From Labrenzia sp. DG1229 (GTDB lineage: Bacteria > Pseudomonadota > Alphaproteobacteria > Rhizobiales > Stappiaceae): DNA of 64,000 nt. Shown piece by piece: positions 32,008-47,500 of the stretch (its first letter is position 1; each line of letters opens with the position of its first letter). The translations under genes and the position numbers were made by a program. The notes under the pieces were generated by a model that was not told where the DNA came from, searched no databases, and saw only the letters and a program-made list of their open reading frames with translations. The DNA lies in the NCBI RefSeq assembly GCF_000521215.1, contig NZ_KI928927.1, forward strand, positions 383,710 to 447,709, read 5' to 3'.

Positions 32008-32745
32008 TCAATCCCCCACCAACCGGCTTGCCGTGAACGGAAAGAGGCGGTCATTCCCTAGCAGGAAGACCGAGAACTGCCGGCGATTGAAGAGTGTCGT
32101 GTAGGCGCGGTCGGTCACATTGAGCCCGCCGGTCAGGGCGCCGAACGCTGGCAGGACGAGGCGGGTGCTGTCGGTGATGAAGCAGGAGCGCCGGATCGAG
32201 CGACCGAAGCGCCGGACGCGGGCGACGGGATGCAGGTGGCCGCAAACCTCGCCGGCTGCGCGTTCGACACCGATTTCCTCAACCGGTTCGTGGCGGAATT
32301 TCAACGGGCCCACGGTAATTTCGTCAACCGTTTCGCCGCAAAGCCGCACAGGGGCAACCGGATCGTGGTTGCCGGTCACCCAGATCCATTCCCGACCCAA
32401 CTGCAGGGTGGTGAGCATGGCGCGATAGGGAGCCGGCAGCCTGTCGGATCCGTCAGCATCATGGAAACTGTCGCCGAGACAGATGACACAGGCCGGATCA
32501 AAGGCGTCCATTACACCGGCGAGCCTTTCCAGCGTCGCTCCCGTATCATAGGGCGGCAGCATGACACCGCGTCTGGCAAAGCTGGAGCCTTTTTCCAGGT
32601 GAAGATCGGCAACGACAAGCAGGGACTCGTCAGGCCACCACAGAACACCGCTGTCGTGCAGCCCGACCAGTTGGCCATTGATCTGAATGTCATGGCACAC
32701 CGGCGCAGTCTGATAATTGCGCACATGTGATGTCAGAACATTCAT
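32008..32745 (-). CDS. pdeM: Ligase-associated DNA damage response metallophosphoesterase PdeM
   Basis: A 245-residue calcineurin-like phosphoesterase with the metal-site motifs LLVVADLHLEKGSSFARRG (about 42-60), ICLGDSFHDADG (about 88-99), WVTGNHDPV (about 121-129) and GEVCGHLHPVARV (about 165-177). The family belongs to a conserved repair cluster with a helicase, an MBL exonuclease and an ATP-dependent ligase. It probably trims 3' or 5' phosphate-containing ends. Its ATG overlaps the helicase stop by ATGA, so the two are coupled. Confidence 0.93.
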   Translation of the reverse strand: MNVLTSHVRNYQTAPVCHDIQINGQLVGLHDSGVLWWPDESLLVVADLHLEKGSSFARRGVMLPPYDTGATLERLAGVMDAFDPACVICLGDSFHDADGSDRLPAPYRAMLTTLQLGREWIWVTGNHDPVAPVRLCGETVDEITVGPLKFRHEPVEEIGVERAAGEVCGHLHPVARVRRFGRSIRRSCFITDSTRLVLPAFGALTGGLNVTDRAYTTLFNRRQFSVFLLGNDRLFPFTASRLVGD

Positions 32746-35246
32746 TCCATAGCCTCCAGAACAAGATCCTCTGCCGCCTCTTCCAAAAGCGAATCCATGG
32801 CTTCACCATAGATCGGTTCTTTGCCTATTTCCAATAGGATAGGCACAGCAAGGGGCGAGACGCGTGTGAGCTGAGTATGTGCGATTCGTCCCCGAATGCG
32901 GGCAAGAAGTTCACCGAGGCGCGAGATATCCAGAAGTCCCTCGGCCGCATCGCTCCAGGTCGCCTTGAGCAGAATGTGATCCGGTTCATGCGCCCTGAGA
33001 ACGTCGTAGATGAGGTCGGAGGAAACCGTGACTTGCCGGCCGGTTTTTTCCTTGCCTGGATGCCGGCGTTCGATCAGGCCTGCGATCACGGCGCAATTGC
33101 GGAAGGTACGCTTCATCAGGCTGGAGTCCGCCAGCCAGGCATCAAGATCGTCGCCGAGGATATCTTCCTCGAAAAGTTCATCCAGTGAAATGCGGCCTGA
33201 TGAAAACAGCAGGGAGAGATCGCCAAGACCCCAGACCGACAGAGCATAGTCGTTGGCGACAAATCCCATCGGACGGGCGCCCATCCGCTCCAGCCGCTTG
33301 GTCAGCAACATGCCGAGCGTCTGGTGCGCCAGCCGGCCTTCGAAGGGGTAACAGACCATGTAGTGCTTGTTCGAGCGCGGGAAGGTCTCGACCAGCAGTC
33401 CGTCGCGCGTCGGCAGGACGGATTTGTCTCTCTGGATTTCCAGCCATTCCCGAACCTGTCCCGGCAACTGGTCCCAGCTCGACGGATTTGCCAGCATCGC
33501 CCGAACTCCCTCTGCCAGATAGGTGGAGAGCGGAAACTTGCCTCCCATATAGGACGGTATCATCGGGTTTTCGGTTTTTGCGCGCGACACATAGGCTTCG
33601 TTTTCGCGGATTGCCTCAAAGCGCACGACTTCGCCGCTGAACAGGAACGTATCGCCGGGGACCATCTGGTCGATGAAGTATTCTTCGATCTCGCCAAGTA
33701 TCCGTCCGCCGCGCCCTACCGGTGTCCGTCGGCCATCCGCTTTCGAACGCACGAGCCTGACCTTGATCTTGGGAGCTTCGACGATCGTGCCGACATTCAG
33801 CCGGTATTGCTGGGCGATTTTCGGGTTGGCAATCCGCCAGAACCCGTCCTTTCCCTTGCGAAGCTTGGCATACTGGTCGTAGCTCTTTAGCGCATAGCCC
33901 CCCGTTGCAGCGAAGTCGATGACGCGCTCGAACGTCTCCCAGTCGAGCGTACGATATGTTTCGGACGATCGGATTTCCTCATAGGTTGCGGCAAGATCCA
34001 GAGCGTCGGCACAGGCAAGGCCGAGAACATGCTGTGCCAGCACATCAAGAGCGCCCTTGCGAAGAGGGGGGGTGTCCTGATCGCCTCGCCTGGATGCGGC
34101 AAGCGCCGCCTGGCATTCGAGTACCTCGAAGCGGTTGGACGGCACAAGCACGGCCTTTGACGGTTCATCCATCCGGTGATTGGCCCGCCCGATCCGCTGT
34201 GCAAGACGGCTTGCGCCCTTCGGTGCGCCGATATTGACGACAAGATCGATGTCACCCCAGTCGATGCCCATGTCGAGTGATGAAGTGGCAACGACTGCCC
34301 TCAGGGCTCCGGATGCCATCGCGGCTTCCACCTTGCGCCGCTGACCGACATCCAGCGAGCCATGGTGAAGAGCGATCGGCAGCGTATCGTCGTTGATACG
34401 CCAGAGTTCCTGGAAGACCATTTCTGCCTGGCTTCTTGTATTCACGAAGAGCAGCGAGACATTATGGGCCTTGATCAATCGGTAGATATCGCCGACCGCA
34501 TAGCGTGAGGAGTGCCCGGACCACGGAAGACGTTCCTGAGAATCCAGTATCGATATGTCGGGTCGGGCTCCTCCCGACACTTCTAGAACATGCGACAGGG
34601 CTCTTTTGTTCGCATCCGGCTGGTCGACCAGATATGCGCGCAAATCATCAGGCTCAGCTACCGTCGCCGAAAGGCCAATGGTGCGAACACCGGGTGCCAG
34701 ACGGCGCAACCGCGCCAGTCCAAGGGCGAGCAGGTCACCGCGTTTTGACGTGACGAGCGCGTGGAGCTCATCCAGGATGACCGTTTTCAAGGACGCAAAC
34801 ATTCTGTCGGACGCCGGATCCGAAAGAAGCAGGGCGATCTGTTCCGGAGTGGTCAGCAGGATGTCCGGTGGATTGAGTTTCTGACGCTGCCGTTTGTGGG
34901 ATGGTGTGTCGCCGGTGCGCGTCTCAAGGCGAACAGGCAGGCTCATCTCCAAAACGGGAGCCTCGAGGTTGCGGGCTATATCGACTGCCAGGGCTTTCAA
35001 TGGGGAGACGTAAAGCGTGTGTATGCCGTGTCCAGGCTGTCCGGTTTTGCGTTTTCCCCGCCTTTCAAGCTCCACGAGGCTTGGCAGAAATCCGGCCAGT
35101 GTCTTGCCCGCACCCGTAGGAGCGATCAGGAGCGTGGAATGGCCCAGCGTCAGGTGATCGATAAGCTGCAGCTGGTGCGGCCGCGGGGCCCAGCCTCGTG
35201 AGGCAAACCAGGATTGAAACCGATTGGGTAGCAGCGCAGCGTCCAT
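32742..35246 (-). CDS. Ligase-associated DNA damage response DEXH-box helicase (Lhr-like)
   Basis: An 834-residue superfamily 2 helicase. Motif I is LIAPTGAGKTLAGFLP (about 36-51), motif II VILDELHAL near 160 (DELH), motif III GLSATV near 197, followed by RecA2 motifs VVATSSLDMGIDWGDIDLVV near 320 and RLAQRIGRANHRMDE near 350. The Lhr-type winged-helix/beta-barrel core fills the C-terminal half. It should unwind or remodel damaged DNA for the ligase-associated repair complex. The ATG at 35246 is preferred to the TTG before it. It is divergent from the exonuclease gene. Confidence 0.94.
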   Translation of the reverse strand: MDAALLPNRFQSWFASRGWAPRPHQLQLIDHLTLGHSTLLIAPTGAGKTLAGFLPSLVELERRGKRKTGQPGHGIHTLYVSPLKALAVDIARNLEAPVLEMSLPVRLETRTGDTPSHKRQRQKLNPPDILLTTPEQIALLLSDPASDRMFASLKTVILDELHALVTSKRGDLLALGLARLRRLAPGVRTIGLSATVAEPDDLRAYLVDQPDANKRALSHVLEVSGGARPDISILDSQERLPWSGHSSRYAVGDIYRLIKAHNVSLLFVNTRSQAEMVFQELWRINDDTLPIALHHGSLDVGQRRKVEAAMASGALRAVVATSSLDMGIDWGDIDLVVNIGAPKGASRLAQRIGRANHRMDEPSKAVLVPSNRFEVLECQAALAASRRGDQDTPPLRKGALDVLAQHVLGLACADALDLAATYEEIRSSETYRTLDWETFERVIDFAATGGYALKSYDQYAKLRKGKDGFWRIANPKIAQQYRLNVGTIVEAPKIKVRLVRSKADGRRTPVGRGGRILGEIEEYFIDQMVPGDTFLFSGEVVRFEAIRENEAYVSRAKTENPMIPSYMGGKFPLSTYLAEGVRAMLANPSSWDQLPGQVREWLEIQRDKSVLPTRDGLLVETFPRSNKHYMVCYPFEGRLAHQTLGMLLTKRLERMGARPMGFVANDYALSVWGLGDLSLLFSSGRISLDELFEEDILGDDLDAWLADSSLMKRTFRNCAVIAGLIERRHPGKEKTGRQVTVSSDLIYDVLRAHEPDHILLKATWSDAAEGLLDISRLGELLARIRGRIAHTQLTRVSPLAVPILLEIGKEPIYGEAMDSLLEEAAEDLVLEAME

Positions 35247-35328
35247 CAAACGGTTTTAGGCCAGACATTGTGAAAAGGCGAGGGGATCAGGCTGATTTTG
35301 TTCACTTTGTGTTCCGGTGGGTGGCCGA

Positions 35329-36402
35329 ATGATGAAAAGGCTCTTGAATGTCGCACCTGATCAGGAATTAAATCTCCGGATGTCTGATCACCTGACAATC
35401 ACCCCCGAAGGTCTTTATTCTCCTGCAGCAGGAGCTCACATCGATCCTGTCCGGCCGGTCGAACGGGCCATTGTCACCCATGGCCACGCGGATCACGCAC
35501 GGGCAGGCCATGGAGCTGTTCTGGCGACGCGGCAGACGCTCGATATCATGGCGATCCGCTACGGAGAGAATTTCTGCGGCACAGCCCAGGCTGTCGACTA
35601 CGGTGAGACTCTCCGGGTCGGGAACGTTGACGTTTCGCTCCATCCCGCGGGCCATGTGCTGGGGTCGGCGCAGGTCCTGTTGCAGACCGCCGGTCAGAAG
35701 ACCGTTGTCTCCGGCGACTACAAGCGCCAGAGCGATCCGACCTGCGCTCCATTCGAACCGGTTCCTTGCGATACGTTCGTGTCGGAGGCGACCTTCGGGT
35801 TACCCGTTTTCCGCCATCCGCCAGCACGACACGAGATTGCGAAACTGCTGTCCTCGCTCGATCTGTTTCCCGAGCAGACTCATCTGGTCGGCGCCTATGC
35901 TCTGGGAAAGGCGCAGCGCGTAATCGCGGAGATCAGGGAGGCCGGGTATAGCAAAGTGATTTACCTTCATGGCGCTCTGGAAAAGCTGACGGACTACTAC
36001 CAGGCGCAGGGGATAGACCTGGGTCTGCTTGAACCGGTTGGAAAACGCGGCAAGGAGCTTCAGGGAGAGATCATAATCTGCCCGCCGGGGCAGTTGAGTG
36101 ATCGCTGGGCGCGGCGGTTTGGCGATCCTGTTGCAGCCATGGCATCCGGATGGATGCGAGTACGCGCCCGGGCGCGTCAACGTGGAGCAGAATTACCGCT
36201 CATCATATCTGATCATGCTGATTGGGATGACCTGTGCCGAACGATTCTCGAAACAGGTGCAGAGCAGATCTGGGTCACGCACGGCGCAGAGGAAGCTCTC
36301 GTGCACTGGTGCGAGTTGAACGGACGAAAGGCCCGCCCTCTCAACATGATCGGCTATGACGATGGCGAGGATACCGACGATGCGCGTGGCACAGAACCGT
36401 GA
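35329..36402 (+). CDS. Ligase-associated DNA damage response exonuclease (MBL/beta-CASP-like)
   Basis: The protein is about 357 residues from the ATG at 35329; another good start is the ATG at 35380 (MSDHLTITPEGLYSPAAGAH). The metallo-beta-lactamase motif is THGHADHARAGHG (HxHxDH) near residue 48. LHPAGHVLGSAQVLL and VVSGDYKRQ follow, and a C-terminal HADWDDL and THG pair resembles the beta-CASP region of RNA/DNA processing nucleases. It works with the helicase and phosphoesterase transcribed divergently. Normally the partner ligase is adjacent; here it lies at 45851. A diverged copy of this gene's last 120 bases occurs at 37710-37889. Confidence 0.93.
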   Translation: MMKRLLNVAPDQELNLRMSDHLTITPEGLYSPAAGAHIDPVRPVERAIVTHGHADHARAGHGAVLATRQTLDIMAIRYGENFCGTAQAVDYGETLRVGNVDVSLHPAGHVLGSAQVLLQTAGQKTVVSGDYKRQSDPTCAPFEPVPCDTFVSEATFGLPVFRHPPARHEIAKLLSSLDLFPEQTHLVGAYALGKAQRVIAEIREAGYSKVIYLHGALEKLTDYYQAQGIDLGLLEPVGKRGKELQGEIIICPPGQLSDRWARRFGDPVAAMASGWMRVRARARQRGAELPLIISDHADWDDLCRTILETGAEQIWVTHGAEEALVHWCELNGRKARPLNMIGYDDGEDTDDARGTEP

Positions 36403-36590
36403 AGGTCGCGGAACGAACACTCCGCGCTGTTGGCTGGATGGTCATCACCGACCGGATGAAATTCGGCATCGATCCTGCAGGCCTGGCGACCGGGACATGT
36501 TCTCATCTTCGGCGGCGGGGCATAAAGCCGGTTAGCGTCAGCTTCCGCACTCGGCGCCCCTCATCATGCGCTGTTTCGCGAGAGGTTTGA

Positions 36591-37400
36591 CTAAACCTCT
36601 TTCCACCAGATGTCTGGCAGCACGACGTCTGGATTTGCGGGGATGTTTTTTTCATCGAGTGGATGCGGAAACACAAGTTCTCTGGTCGGGTTCGAAGCAT
36701 CTACCCGGTCCTTGCGCAGGAATGTAACTTCAAAAACCTTTGGAACTTGAATTCCGTTCCGTTCCACCAAACCCTTGCAGTTGTTGGGATGAATGTGAAC
36801 GACAACGAATTCACGGGTGATCTTTTCCATCAGCGCTTTCATTAGCCGCAGCGTGTAGCTCTCAAAGAGCATCTGCAACGTATGAAATTCAATAACCATG
36901 ATCCTGAAGCGTTTCAGGGTCTCCATGGACGTATCAATGAGGACGTCGTACTCAAAGCCTTCTATGTCCATTTGCAGCAAAAGATCCTGACCGGAAATTT
37001 GCTCTTCCTTCGAAGTCAGCCAACTTTCCAGCCGGATGAAGTCTCCTTCGTCCCGACTTCCCAGAAACTTCTTCTCAAAGGAAAAGAACTCGTTGAGCAC
37101 TGGCGGGTTTTCAACACTGGCATCCGCCAGAAACGATTTTATCGAATACCTGGACGCCAGTTCCTCTTCAAAACTCGCCTTTACCGAGACACCGGGTGAA
37201 AAGCAAAAACCTATGCCCTGGAAGTCATCTGGAACCAGGTAACCGCCATCGCCATCTTCTCCAATTCTAACCAGTTCATGTGAAGTGGGTTTTGGCCTAA
37301 GTATATTGATGAATTCAACAAGGTCATCTGGTTCGCTGACTCTGGATCGCGGGCGCTTGTCTTCGTATAGGAATTTTGAAATGCTTTTGCGCAATCCCAT
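36591..37400 (-). CDS. FkbM-family SAM-dependent methyltransferase
   Basis: A 269-residue protein with the FkbM-type core: ELVRIGEDGDGGYLVPDDFQ near residue 42 and LLLQMDIEGFEYDVLIDTSM near 142, followed by FRIMVIEFHTLQ. Such enzymes O-methylate sugars or lipid-linked glycans, often in polysaccharide clusters. The gene is visibly richer in A+T than its neighbours, and an AAGGAAG site supports the ATG at 37400. It is flanked by the intact exonuclease gene on one side and a diverged remnant of the exonuclease 3' end on the other, so it looks like acquired cargo. A small hairpin (36581-36600) spans its stop codon. The acceptor is unknown. Confidence 0.85.
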   Translation of the reverse strand: MGLRKSISKFLYEDKRPRSRVSEPDDLVEFINILRPKPTSHELVRIGEDGDGGYLVPDDFQGIGFCFSPGVSVKASFEEELASRYSIKSFLADASVENPPVLNEFFSFEKKFLGSRDEGDFIRLESWLTSKEEQISGQDLLLQMDIEGFEYDVLIDTSMETLKRFRIMVIEFHTLQMLFESYTLRLMKALMEKITREFVVVHIHPNNCKGLVERNGIQVPKVFEVTFLRKDRVDASNPTRELVFPHPLDEKNIPANPDVVLPDIWWKEV

Positions 37401-37709
37401 TTTTTCTTCCTTGATTGAATGCTATCGATCTTTGCCGTCGAAGCCTGGGTTGCTTCAGAAGGCAGCGCAACCAGAGAGGTTGGCCACGGTGGCATTTTGT
37501 CCTCGTTGAGCACCCTCGTAATGCCTTGCGCTCGGCAATTGGTATTCGATTGTCCGTTGAACCAGATTTGCTTCTGTTGCCCTACACTCAGAACGCGGTT
37601 TTGGCTAGTGCCCTCACTGTTGTCAGCTTTCTCAATCGCCTCTGCCGGCGCGAAGGTCGAGGTGTCAGTTTTCCAATGACCGGGCGAAGCTCGAAGTGGC
37701 GCAAAGTAG
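37401..37709. other. Non-coding stretch upstream of the FkbM gene
   Basis: This 309-bp segment contains the FkbM ribosome-binding site and presumably its promoter. Open frames on both strands cross it but none has a recognisable product or continues credibly; a 170-codon minus-strand frame runs into the FkbM gene out of frame. No transposase, integrase or terminal repeat is seen. Confidence 0.5.
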
Positions 37710-37889
37710 ATTTTTGTGACCAACGACGCTGGGGATGCGCATTTGCTCCGGCGCGAATTGAATGGACGAAACGCTCAAGCACTCAATATGATAGGCTATG
37801 ACGATGGCGAGGATGCCGGCGACGTGCGGGTTTCAGGGGCGAAAAATTACCTGTGTGCTTGTTCCCATCCTCCGGGGAGGCGGTCATGA
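37710..37889 (+). pseudogene. Diverged 3' remnant of the ligase-associated exonuclease gene
   Basis: Reading from 37710 gives IFVTNDAGDAHLLRRELNGR then NAQALNMIGYDDGED, which aligns without gaps to the end of the intact exonuclease (IWVTHGAEEALVHWCELNGR then KARPLNMIGYDDGED) at a constant offset of 1442 bp. About 24 of 41 residues are identical. An in-frame TAG immediately precedes it, so it is only a fragment. The frame stays open to a TGA at 37887-37889 that overlaps the ATG of the next gene. This is the typical end of an operon gene and suggests that the remnant is the original 3' end of the exonuclease gene at this site. Confidence 0.8.
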
Positions 37890-38329
37890 CGGACAACGGT
37901 GGATTTGAGAAGGCCGGGAACGGCCACACGAACGGGTCGGGGACGAGTGCGAATGGAGATGCCGAAGAGGCCATTGCGCAGCTTTTCGACGACTACCAGG
38001 CCGGCTTTGACGACTACGATATTGAACGCATCTGCGATTGCTTTGCCCTGCCGGTGATTATCTGGCAGCACGAGAAGGGTCACGTTTTTGCAAATGACGA
38101 CGAACTGATCGAGAACATCGAAGCCCTTCTGAAAGCGCTCGAAAAGGAAGGGATCGCGCATTCGGAATTTCAGGTCGTATCGAGCCACGTCAGCGGATCG
38201 GCTGCTCTCGTGACGCTCGACTGGTCGCAGGAAAGTGCTGATGGTGAAGCCGTGTTTGAGTTCACGTGCCACTATCAACTGATCCAGCAGGGGCCTGACT
38301 GGGTGATCACCTGTATCATCAATGAATGA
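37886..38329 (+). CDS. SnoaL/NTF2-like domain protein
   Basis: A 147-residue protein: a polar, glycine/asparagine-rich N-terminal 30 residues, then a compact alpha+beta domain (AIAQLFDDYQAGFDDYDIER, CDCFALPVIIWQHEKGHVFA, ALVTLDWSQESADGEAVFEF, CHYQLIQQGPDWVITCIINE) with the length and pattern of NTF2-like proteins. These serve as isomerases, hydrolases or binding domains; no activity is predictable. The GGGGAGG site supports the ATG at 37886. That ATG overlaps the stop of the exonuclease remnant, indicating former translational coupling to the repair gene. Confidence 0.75.
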   Translation: MTDNGGFEKAGNGHTNGSGTSANGDAEEAIAQLFDDYQAGFDDYDIERICDCFALPVIIWQHEKGHVFANDDELIENIEALLKALEKEGIAHSEFQVVSSHVSGSAALVTLDWSQESADGEAVFEFTCHYQLIQQGPDWVITCIINE

Positions 38330-38353
38330 TCGCCGCTGTATAGGGCCATTGTC

Positions 38354-39535
38354 TCAGGCAAGCAGAGCTTCACAAAATGGGTATGTGGTCATCCGCTCGG
38401 CCCCCGTTTCGGTGATCAGGTACTGGTCCTCCAGTTTGACACCTTCGCTTCCCGCTTCCGCGCCGATATAGCTTTCAATGCAGATCACCATGCCTGGCTC
38501 GAAGCAACCTTCGAATACATAAGGAACGCCATCAAAATAATGCGGCACATAGGGGAATTCGCCGCACAGTCCGAGGCCGTGACCGAGACAATAATACCCA
38601 TGGCCGCGATACTCGGCCGGAATAGGCCACGCGGCACGCGCGAATTCCTCGTAGGAGACACCGGGGCCGAGGAGCATGGCATTGTGGTGCAGCTGGTCAT
38701 GGGCGAGACTGTAGAGATCCTTTTGTCTCAAGCTGGCTGCACGGTCACCACACAGGAACGTTCGCGAGAAATCCACGGCATAGTGCAGGTAGCCCAGGGC
38801 ATCGGTATCAAAACACACCAGATCACCGGATTGCATACGCCGCGGGCCTGCTTCCTGGAAGTAAGGGAATGTTCTGTTGCCGGATTGAAATAGCCGGGTC
38901 GAGACGTATTCACCTTCTGTCGCAATTAGGTGGCGGTGAAATTCGGACCAGACTTCAACTTCGCTCGCATCGGGTGTGATAGCTGCTTCAAGGGAGCGCG
39001 CAGCGGCCTCTACGCGGCTGACAGCCTCGCGCATGACTGAAATTTCCAGAGGCTGCTTGATGAGACGTGCAGTCGAAAACACATCGGTCGCATCTTCCAG
39101 TTCAAGTCCGTTCTCGCGCAATACATCAATGACCGGTAGATCGAAACCTTCTGTCGCGAGCCGCGTTTCCGCACCCATTGCGGATCTGACGTCACGAACA
39201 AAACAGTCGATCTCGGAGCGGTAACCGGGACCGGAAATCGCCGAGATCCCTGGAGCCGCACGGATGTCCGTTGCAACCGGATTGTCCGTTTGCAGGTGTT
39301 CGCAGCCTGCGAATTCCCAAAGAATGACTTCCCCCGACGCCAGTATCAGGGCAAACCGGAAAGGACCCATGAGACTGAACACTGTCATGTTCCGCGCGCC
39401 CGTCGCGTAGAGAATATTTATCGGGTTGGCCGTCAGCACTGCGGGAACGTCACGTTGGGTCATGACCGCAACAAGACGCTTGTGGGTTTCTCTGATCAGG
39501 CGATCGCGTTCAATTTCCAAGACCGGGCGTCCCAT
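38354..39535 (-). CDS. M24 (aminopeptidase P/creatinase-fold) metalloenzyme, DddP-like but lacking its catalytic Asp
   Basis: This 393-residue protein has a creatinase-like N-terminal domain (about 1-160) and an M24 catalytic domain. The six metal ligands are Asp243, Asp245, Asp255, His319, Glu354 and Glu369. As I recall the DMSP lyase DddP of Ruegeria lacuscaerulensis, its ligands are D295, D297, D307, H371, E406 and E421: the same set with a constant shift of 52. Tyr314 matches DddP Y366, but the proposed catalytic base D377 is Gly325 here. It may therefore be an Xaa-Pro-type peptidase or a related hydrolase and not a DMSP lyase. It starts without a clear ribosome-binding site. Confidence 0.8.
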   Translation of the reverse strand: MGRPVLEIERDRLIRETHKRLVAVMTQRDVPAVLTANPINILYATGARNMTVFSLMGPFRFALILASGEVILWEFAGCEHLQTDNPVATDIRAAPGISAISGPGYRSEIDCFVRDVRSAMGAETRLATEGFDLPVIDVLRENGLELEDATDVFSTARLIKQPLEISVMREAVSRVEAAARSLEAAITPDASEVEVWSEFHRHLIATEGEYVSTRLFQSGNRTFPYFQEAGPRRMQSGDLVCFDTDALGYLHYAVDFSRTFLCGDRAASLRQKDLYSLAHDQLHHNAMLLGPGVSYEEFARAAWPIPAEYRGHGYYCLGHGLGLCGEFPYVPHYFDGVPYVFEGCFEPGMVICIESYIGAEAGSEGVKLEDQYLITETGAERMTTYPFCEALLA

Positions 39536-45850: not shown

Positions 45851-47500
45851 ATGCAGGCTTTCTCCCAGCTTCTGGACCGACTTTCCCTCGAACCCCGGCG
45901 CCTTGCGAAGGAGGCGTTGCTGGTGCGTTACTTTCAGGAAACGGCCAATCCGGATCGTGGCTACGCCCTTGCCGCACTGACCGGAGGGCTTTCTTTCAAA
46001 AACGCAAAGCCGGCGCTTCTTCGATCCCTGATCAGTGAGCGAACAGATCCGCAGCTGTTTGCGCTATCTTATGATTTTGTCGGGGATCTTTCCGAAACAA
46101 TAGCGCTGATGTGGCCCGAGGCCGGAAGGGACCGTCCTGATGAGTCCAACGGCGAGTTGACACTGACGCAGGTCGTTACTGAATTGGAGACGGCCGGAAA
46201 AACGGACGTTCCCAGATTGTTGACGGCTTGGCTTGACCGGCTGGACGAGACAGGAAGGTGGGCGCTGTTGAAACTCGTGACCGGCGGCCTGCGCGTCGGT
46301 GTCTCCTCTAGGCTTGCCAAGACATCGGTTGCAAAGCTCGGCTGTCTCAATGTGTCTCAGATTGAAGAAGTCTGGCATGGATTGAAACCGCCCTATGAAA
46401 CTCTCTTTGCCTGGGCAGAGGGAAAAGGCAACAGACCTGACAATCAGGATCCGGCGCCGTTCCGGCCGGTAATGCTGGCGCACCCGCTGGATGAAAACCG
46501 GGATCCTGACTTGCTGGTGTCCGCGGACTACGCAGTTGAATGGAAATGGGACGGCATCCGGGTGCAGGCAGCTGCAGGGAAGACTTCAAGCGGTGAAACG
46601 GTTCGCCGCCTTTACAGCCGCACGGGCGAGGATATTTCCAGGGCGTTTCCCGATATTGTCGAGTTGCTGGATTTCAATGCCTGCATCGATGGTGAGCTAC
46701 TGATAGTACATGATGGCAAGGTAAAACCATTTTCCGACCTTCAGAAACGCCTGAATCGCAAGACAGCAGGACCGAAACTGATCCGGGACCATCCGGCAGC
46801 GATCCGGGCATACGATCTGCTCCAGATAGGCGACGAGGATCTGCGCGATTGGCCGTTTGTTGAGCGGCGCAAGAGGTTGGAGGCGTTCATTGGTACAGTT
46901 TCAGACCCGCGCATCGAGCTGTCACCGATGGTTGAAGTGAACGGGTGGGATGAAATGGCCGCAGCGCGCGCCGACCCGCACAAACTTCTCCGGACCCATG
47001 ACGCCGAAGCTGTAGAGGGACTGATGCTCAAGCAATGGGCCTCTTCATATGTCAGCGGCCGGCCGAAAGGACCCTGGTTCAAATGGAAACGGGAACCGTT
47101 TCTGGTCGACACCGTGCTCATGTATGCACAGCGGGGGCACGGAAAACGGTCATCCTTTTACTCGGACTACACATTTGGCGTTTGGCGGCGTGGAGATGCC
47201 GGCGAGGAATTGGTGCCGGTCGGCAAAGCTTATTTTGGCTTCACCGATGAAGAACTTCGTGAAATTGACCGATTTGTCCGCAACAACACAATCAACCGTT
47301 TTGGCCCTGTGCGGGAAGTCGAACACGGCAAGGATCAAGGTCTTGTTCTGGAAGTGGCCTTCGAAGGACTGAACCGTTCGACCCGGCACAAGTCCGGCGT
47401 TGCCATGCGGTTTCCAAGAATATCCAGGTTGCGATGGGACAAGCCGCCGGCTGAAGCTGACCGGTTGGAAGCCTTGGAATCGTTGCTGCCGGACAGTTGA
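45851..47500 (+). CDS. ATP-dependent DNA ligase (ligase-associated DNA damage response type)
   Basis: A 549-residue ATP-dependent ligase with an N-terminal DNA-binding domain (about 1-200), a nucleotidyltransferase domain with adenylated Lys232 in VEWKWDGIRVQ, later motifs DGELLIV, EGLMLKQW and PWFKWKREP (motif V, two lysines), and an OB-fold C-terminus. Its N-terminal MQAFSQLLDRLSLEPRRLAK matches the ligase of the four-gene repair cluster. No ribosome-binding site is visible and a terminator abuts its start. It is about 9.4 kb from its usual partners (exonuclease, helicase, PdeM). Confidence 0.93.
   Translation: MQAFSQLLDRLSLEPRRLAKEALLVRYFQETANPDRGYALAALTGGLSFKNAKPALLRSLISERTDPQLFALSYDFVGDLSETIALMWPEAGRDRPDESNGELTLTQVVTELETAGKTDVPRLLTAWLDRLDETGRWALLKLVTGGLRVGVSSRLAKTSVAKLGCLNVSQIEEVWHGLKPPYETLFAWAEGKGNRPDNQDPAPFRPVMLAHPLDENRDPDLLVSADYAVEWKWDGIRVQAAAGKTSSGETVRRLYSRTGEDISRAFPDIVELLDFNACIDGELLIVHDGKVKPFSDLQKRLNRKTAGPKLIRDHPAAIRAYDLLQIGDEDLRDWPFVERRKRLEAFIGTVSDPRIELSPMVEVNGWDEMAAARADPHKLLRTHDAEAVEGLMLKQWASSYVSGRPKGPWFKWKREPFLVDTVLMYAQRGHGKRSSFYSDYTFGVWRRGDAGEELVPVGKAYFGFTDEELREIDRFVRNNTINRFGPVREVEHGKDQGLVLEVAFEGLNRSTRHKSGVAMRFPRISRLRWDKPPAEADRLEALESLLPDS

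Follow-up and report, generated by a model that had tools for sequence, protein, structure and literature searches.

A promoter-like element in the 3' end of an exonuclease gene, repeatedly detached around inserted cargo genes in Roseibium

Introduction

Repeated gene ends around foreign genes are usually taken as integrase scars, and some genomic islands are known to rebuild the 3' end of the gene into which they insert. A second relevant process is duplication-degeneration-complementation, a form of subfunctionalization in which, of two functions, one is lost from the first copy and the other from the second. Promoters located inside the end of an upstream gene are known from alphaproteobacteria; in the Caulobacter start-site map, 197 starts are both primary and internal (PMC4287350).

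We describe an exonuclease gene whose 3' end is repeated around a cargo gene. As in 3'-end-restoring islands, the repeated end lies on both sides of the cargo and one junction has been reused. Unlike such islands, no integrase was recognised, the repeat is not identical, and a promoter-like element is kept downstream. The locus also resembles duplication-degeneration-complementation: at the sequence level, coding has been lost in the detached tails and the exact motif is absent from all five upstream copies, except that here one function is to encode a protein end and the other to serve as the predicted promoter of a different gene, both within the same 30 nt. A close parallel is category IP of the Caulobacter map (PMC4287350), where a start likewise lies in the last part of an upstream gene and serves the next gene; unlike those promoters, the element in the exonuclease tail was deduced from constraint, and it was traced across a genus through insertions and gene loss. 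We found no described case of such a split, and no start-site map for this group, in literature judged by titles and abstract openings. Internal promoters in upstream gene ends are known; the novelty lies in their being split repeatedly around cargo.

Results

The window, meaning the whole 64,000-nt stretch of a Roseibium genome that was analysed, carries a ligase-associated repair cluster. PdeM (32008-32745) and the Lhr-type helicase gene lhr (32742-35249) lie on the minus strand. They are followed on the plus strand by an intact gene for the ligase-associated DNA damage response exonuclease (35332-36402), which scores 481.7 bits against NCBIfam TIGR04122 and passes the equivalog cut-off of 325. 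The first ATG was used as its start, and a GTG at 35317 is a possible alternative. Next comes a segment recognised as inserted by comparison with other genomes of the genus (36403-37696), and after it the plus-strand NTF2-like gene (DUF4440/DUF6841; 37886-38329). The cargo of the insert is a minus-strand FkbM-type methyltransferase gene (36591-37400) that scores 29.1 bits against Pfam PF05050 (gathering cut-off 22.7) and 23.4 against TIGR01444, under the cut-off of 37.7. As the initial annotation had noted, no integrase is visible: gene and frame matches within the insert revealed only FkbM, together with seven further frames that have no Pfam match over the cut-off. No tRNA was found in the window. 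The ATP-dependent ligase of the cluster lies further along, at 45854-47488.

Downstream of the NTF2-like gene, on the minus strand, is an M24 peptidase gene (38354-39535) with a strong but sub-threshold match to the DMSP lyase DddP model (272.8 versus 600 bits). Among the stretches read, an M24 peptidase occupies the same place in G020, G032 and G068.

Of the direct repeats listed for this region, the longest is a gapless 131-nt match with 74 per cent identity, pairing the 3' end of the intact exonuclease (36256-36386, plus strand) with 37698-37828 at a spacing of 1442 nt. A DNA profile built from thirty-six single-copy exonuclease genes matched the distal copy over 37697-37840 of the same strand (E = 3.7e-25), so this copy is no chance match. 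These results bear out the initial annotation, which had reported a duplicated exonuclease end at this offset and had left nucleotide relatedness to be checked, and the in-frame TAG that it described as cutting off the distal copy is present at 37707-37709. Its reading of the TGA that overlaps the NTF2 ATG (37887-37889 and 37886) as the native operon end has to be revised. In G024 and G067, which belong to the same clade, the exonuclease ends in VSGA followed by TGA about 42 nt before the NTF2-like gene. The window reads GCG-AAA at the corresponding positions (37839-37844), with AAA in place of the stop at 37842-37844, and the frame extends 45 nt to the overlapping TGA. Judged from these relatives, the native stop 45 nt upstream has been lost, and the TGA at 37887 became the end of the frame later and by accident. 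A longer exonuclease remnant was sought in the insert, and only the last ~144 nt were found.

We compared the distal stretch, from the -10 hexamer described below to the NTF2 start, with those single-copy genomes in which the motif is exact and the leader does not exceed 200 nt. It scored best against G067, G032, G024, G068 and G013. Because these best scores fall in the window's own clade, the downstream tail is the native one, in agreement with the earlier proposal of a stranded native 3' end. The last residues of the upstream copy differ from those of the clade.

Across the genus, the usual arrangement is an exonuclease gene that runs directly into the NTF2-like gene. Thirty-six of forty-five genomes have this arrangement with one intact exonuclease and nothing inserted between the two genes, and the NTF2 match starts -10 to +202 nt from the exonuclease stop (median 42). 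The nine remaining genomes comprise five with cargo and a second tail, two without exonuclease (G018 and G025), one with the exonuclease split over two contigs and the NTF2-like gene 32 nt on (G001), and one that lacks both genes (G066). The FkbM insert, far from being shared by all related strains, was matched only in the window and its sister G020 (R. album). At the family level, NTF2 was matched in 86 of 87 genomes and the exonuclease in 69, a difference that fits selection for NTF2 expression. In G049, from another family of the order, the exonuclease likewise stands ~800 nt away from an NTF2-like gene and the ligase (L051:4056-4854), and L155 has a similar spacing.

Other cargo is present at the same junction in other genomes of the genus, and a remnant of the exonuclease end lies directly before the NTF2-like gene in G006, G029, G023, G018 and G025. 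In G006 and G029 the cargo is a minus-strand gene of 109 aa, 69 per cent identical between the two and without a family match; no integrase was recognised in either insert. G023 carries a RiPP maturase of the GrrM/OscB radical SAM type (TIGR04261, 379 bits; cut-off 310) in an insert that is incomplete, its left end being on another contig. Within this region (L054:86-4820), a short tryptophan-rich frame precedes the maturase and a 1109-aa frame without a family match follows it. G018 and G025 have an SH3-domain gene between lhr and the NTF2-like gene where the exonuclease is missing (L105:9862-11571, L106:9853-10817). No exonuclease match was found elsewhere in either genome, and Lhr and PdeM stay in place. 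On the joint tree, the detached state requires at least four changes, with the placement of G006, G023 and G029 not resolved; the cargo is also of four types.

The distal copy in the window contains TGGACG-N18-TATGAT (37763-37792, plus strand), composed of a -35-like hexamer at 37763-37768 and a -10-like hexamer at 37787-37792. The initial annotation did not mention this element. It fits the sigma-70 consensus at nine of twelve positions (TGGACG matches TTGACA at four of six, a consensus match only), and its hexamer spacing falls within the 16-18 nt of internal promoters upstream of a next gene. A general sigma-70 scan of the plus strand over 36200-37950 returned this site and no other; with one further site on the minus strand, there were two in all versus 0.7 in shuffled sequences. 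The exact motif pattern occurs once in the 7.63-Mb genome, in the distal copy. Between the end of the -10 hexamer and the NTF2 start lie 94 nt in the window and 93 nt in G020. The median of this distance among the thirty single-copy genomes with the motif is 95 nt, twenty of them lying at 86-106 nt. For the other five remnants the distance, taken to where the NTF2 match begins, is 71 to 135 nt.

In all seven genomes of the genus where an intact exonuclease does not directly precede the NTF2-like gene any more, a detached tail with the motif is retained; the motif is exact in six and has one mismatch in the seventh. The profile search for tails was independent of the motif expression; three tails are weak by that search (E = 0.00016 in G006, 0.00055 in G029 and 0.0012 in G018), their matches coming mostly from the motif. 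GACGAAA and TCAATATGAT are common to all seven remnants, which vary in the sequence between these blocks. Agreement of the tails with the single-copy consensus was counted in the hexamers (83 of 84 positions), in the spacer (89 of 126) and over all positions outside the hexamers (250 of 406), a comparison biased upward since the tails were placed by the motif expression and aligned without gaps.

The upstream copies show the complementary pattern. The exact motif is present in thirty of thirty-six single-copy genes versus none of the five upstream copies in duplicated loci (Fisher P = 0.0006, or 0.009 when counted as three events), though the numbers are small and phylogenetically non-independent, with perhaps three duplication events behind them. 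The proximal copy of the window reads CGGACG/CATGAT at the motif positions, with two mismatches. TATGAT is still present in the upstream copies of G020 and G029, and the copy of G020 has one mismatch in all, as many as the single-copy genome G028.

The motif is not universal. Six of the thirty-six single-copy genomes lack the exact form, with one to five mismatches. Elsewhere in the family, it is found in two further genera (g27, 5/5; g124, 1/1) but not in g26 and g28 (0/17), where NTF2 follows the exonuclease, nor in the exonuclease-poor g125 and g123 (0/19). Since these genomes and genera lack the exact motif, NTF2 can be expressed in other ways.

Two other kinds of element were considered for the region. 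An RNA element was rejected: no Rfam match reached the gathering score in 36200-38000, and inspection by eye shows no complementarity between the two conserved blocks. An intrinsic terminator was rejected as well, with none found in 36200-37950.

Intact exonuclease genes show codon constraint at the same place. We scored each of 269 codon columns by its departure from the gene's own codon usage across the thirty-six single-copy genomes, leaving out the five duplicated genomes and G001, G018, G025 and G066. The top four columns (CGA, GGA, CTC and ATA) are in or next to the motif, and they rank 1, 2, 3 and 5 after thinning to twenty-four genomes. Only GGA has its variable base within a hexamer, the -35. 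The free base of CGA comes 1 nt after that hexamer. Around the -10 hexamer, the free base of CTC precedes it by 3 nt and the one of ATA follows it by 1 nt. All seven remnants keep the CGA and CTC bases, and four keep the ATA base. The two AAT codons, each of which supplies the first base of a hexamer with its third position, reach only ranks 45 and 71, in part because the exonuclease gene normally uses AAT for Asn.

Across forty-seven outgroup loci, forty-six of which have no NTF2 match in the stretch, codons of the tail rank 18th of 227 at best; this set was drawn from fifty-nine loci (L137-L195), twelve without the tail pattern having been dropped. For seventeen Bradyrhizobium loci alone, CGG ranks 6th and CTC 8th of 307 at this block. 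Of the control genes, lhr (thirty-five of the thirty-six genomes) scores higher, in its own 3' end, dead (thirty-three) has one higher column, and lig (thirty-one) and mcp (eighteen) score lower.

The insert is older than the divergence of the two genomes that share it. The window and G020 are 93.5 per cent identical over 34001-39500, with identities of 93.7 per cent in the exonuclease, 95.6 in FkbM, 89.5 in the distal tail, 96.6 in NTF2, and 82.4 and 88.5 in the non-coding flanks of FkbM. Synonymous divergence is alike for FkbM (dS = 0.170), the exonuclease (0.188), NTF2 (0.156) and Lhr (0.191), and the insert therefore predates the split. The dN/dS of 0.085 for FkbM between the two genomes indicates purifying selection and retention as a gene. 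Its source lineage was not found among the forty-five genus genomes and 297 genomes drawn from the order; sixteen of the latter have a match, the best outside the genus with 51 per cent identity.

Separate trees of Lhr, the exonuclease and NTF2 each group the window and G020 with G032, G024 and G013 (SH-aLRT 97, 94 and 90). A joint tree of Lhr, NTF2 and DEAD concurs (100/99) and adds G067 and G068 to the clade. This agreement leaves the divergent relative, named in the initial annotation as the donor of the intact exonuclease, unsupported. What stands of that account is an insertion at an otherwise empty site and a stranded native end; the divergent donor and the native TGA/ATG junction are not supported.

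Discussion

We propose, with a probability of roughly 0.7, that the exonuclease end served a dual purpose, as protein code and as promoter of the NTF2-like gene, and was split by duplication, with selection for NTF2 transcription keeping the tails. The last 30 or so codons of the exonuclease would carry a sigma-70-type promoter, TGGACG-N18-TATGAT, so that DNA inserted between the two genes would separate the NTF2-like gene from it. In the window lineage, the FkbM gene would have entered along with a second exonuclease 3' end. The upstream copy would then have kept the protein end without the exact promoter, and the downstream copy would have lost its frame and native stop while keeping the promoter at the usual distance from the NTF2-like gene. 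Other lineages would have undergone the same split around different cargo, and in G018 and G025 the promoter remnant would have been retained after the exonuclease was gone. The gene arrangement, the constrained codons and the complementarity of the two copies are observed; that the element works as a promoter, and that the tails were kept by selection on NTF2 transcription, we infer. Several results weigh against this reading: the single-copy genomes and family genera without the exact motif, the imperfect consensus fit, the position of three of the four top codon bases outside the hexamers, the low ranks of the AAT codons, the high rank of CTC in Bradyrhizobium, codon scores in lhr and dead that are as high, the TATGAT still present in two upstream copies, and the small number of duplication events. 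As for the extra copy, our guess is recombination with DNA that carried an exonuclease end together with cargo.

An unlikely alternative is that site-specific integrase islands used the exonuclease 3' end as their attachment core, supplying a new gene end each time and leaving the old one on the attR side, with the integrases since lost. Recurrent use of one junction, the different cargo and the repeated gene end are all as such islands would leave them, yet no integrase was recognised in the inserts of the window, G006 or G029. The copies in the window, at 74 per cent over 131 nt, are also not the near-identical end repeats expected of such an island, although decay may account for this. Nor would an attachment site that is not in use explain the synonymous codon constraint in insert-free genomes, or the remnant kept by G018 and G025 without an exonuclease.

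We think it improbable that an unequal local duplication of the exonuclease end came first and the cargo later, with the motif kept by chance or because the tails are young. The short stretch of exonuclease homology left in the window insert (~144 nt) would suit such an event, but spacer and flanks have diverged and the hexamers have not, even allowing for the upward bias of that comparison. The least probable explanation is that the exonuclease and FkbM were imported together from a divergent relative by homologous recombination, stranding an inert tail: the native distal tail and leader and the unusual last residues of the upstream copy speak for it, but the exonuclease tree agrees with those of Lhr and NTF2 in placing the window and G020 in the native clade (SH-aLRT 94), dS is alike across all four genes (0.156-0.191), and an inert tail should not retain both hexamers in seven genomes.

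If the exonuclease end was indeed a dual-purpose sequence split by duplication, the scrap retained here, which looks like a promoter, was repeatedly freed from overlapping protein code. The genus would then offer a recurring natural experiment on the way a dual-purpose sequence is divided once it has been duplicated, and a sequence-only route to promoters hidden in gene ends. It would also give a reason why some junctions take cargo only with such a duplication. A broader suggestion, to which we give somewhat less than even odds, is that a promoter in a gene end filters horizontal insertion, such that at the exonuclease-NTF2 junction only inserts bringing a spare exonuclease end survive, and that repeated ends can mark hidden promoters instead of integrase sites.

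A second strongly constrained codon block lies in the 3' end of lhr, at about codons 770-796, just before pdeM. GGACTT, CTTCT, GAATC and CATANT recur there in the twenty-seven genomes read, and the block contains a GANTC site; by eye, it may be another hidden promoter.
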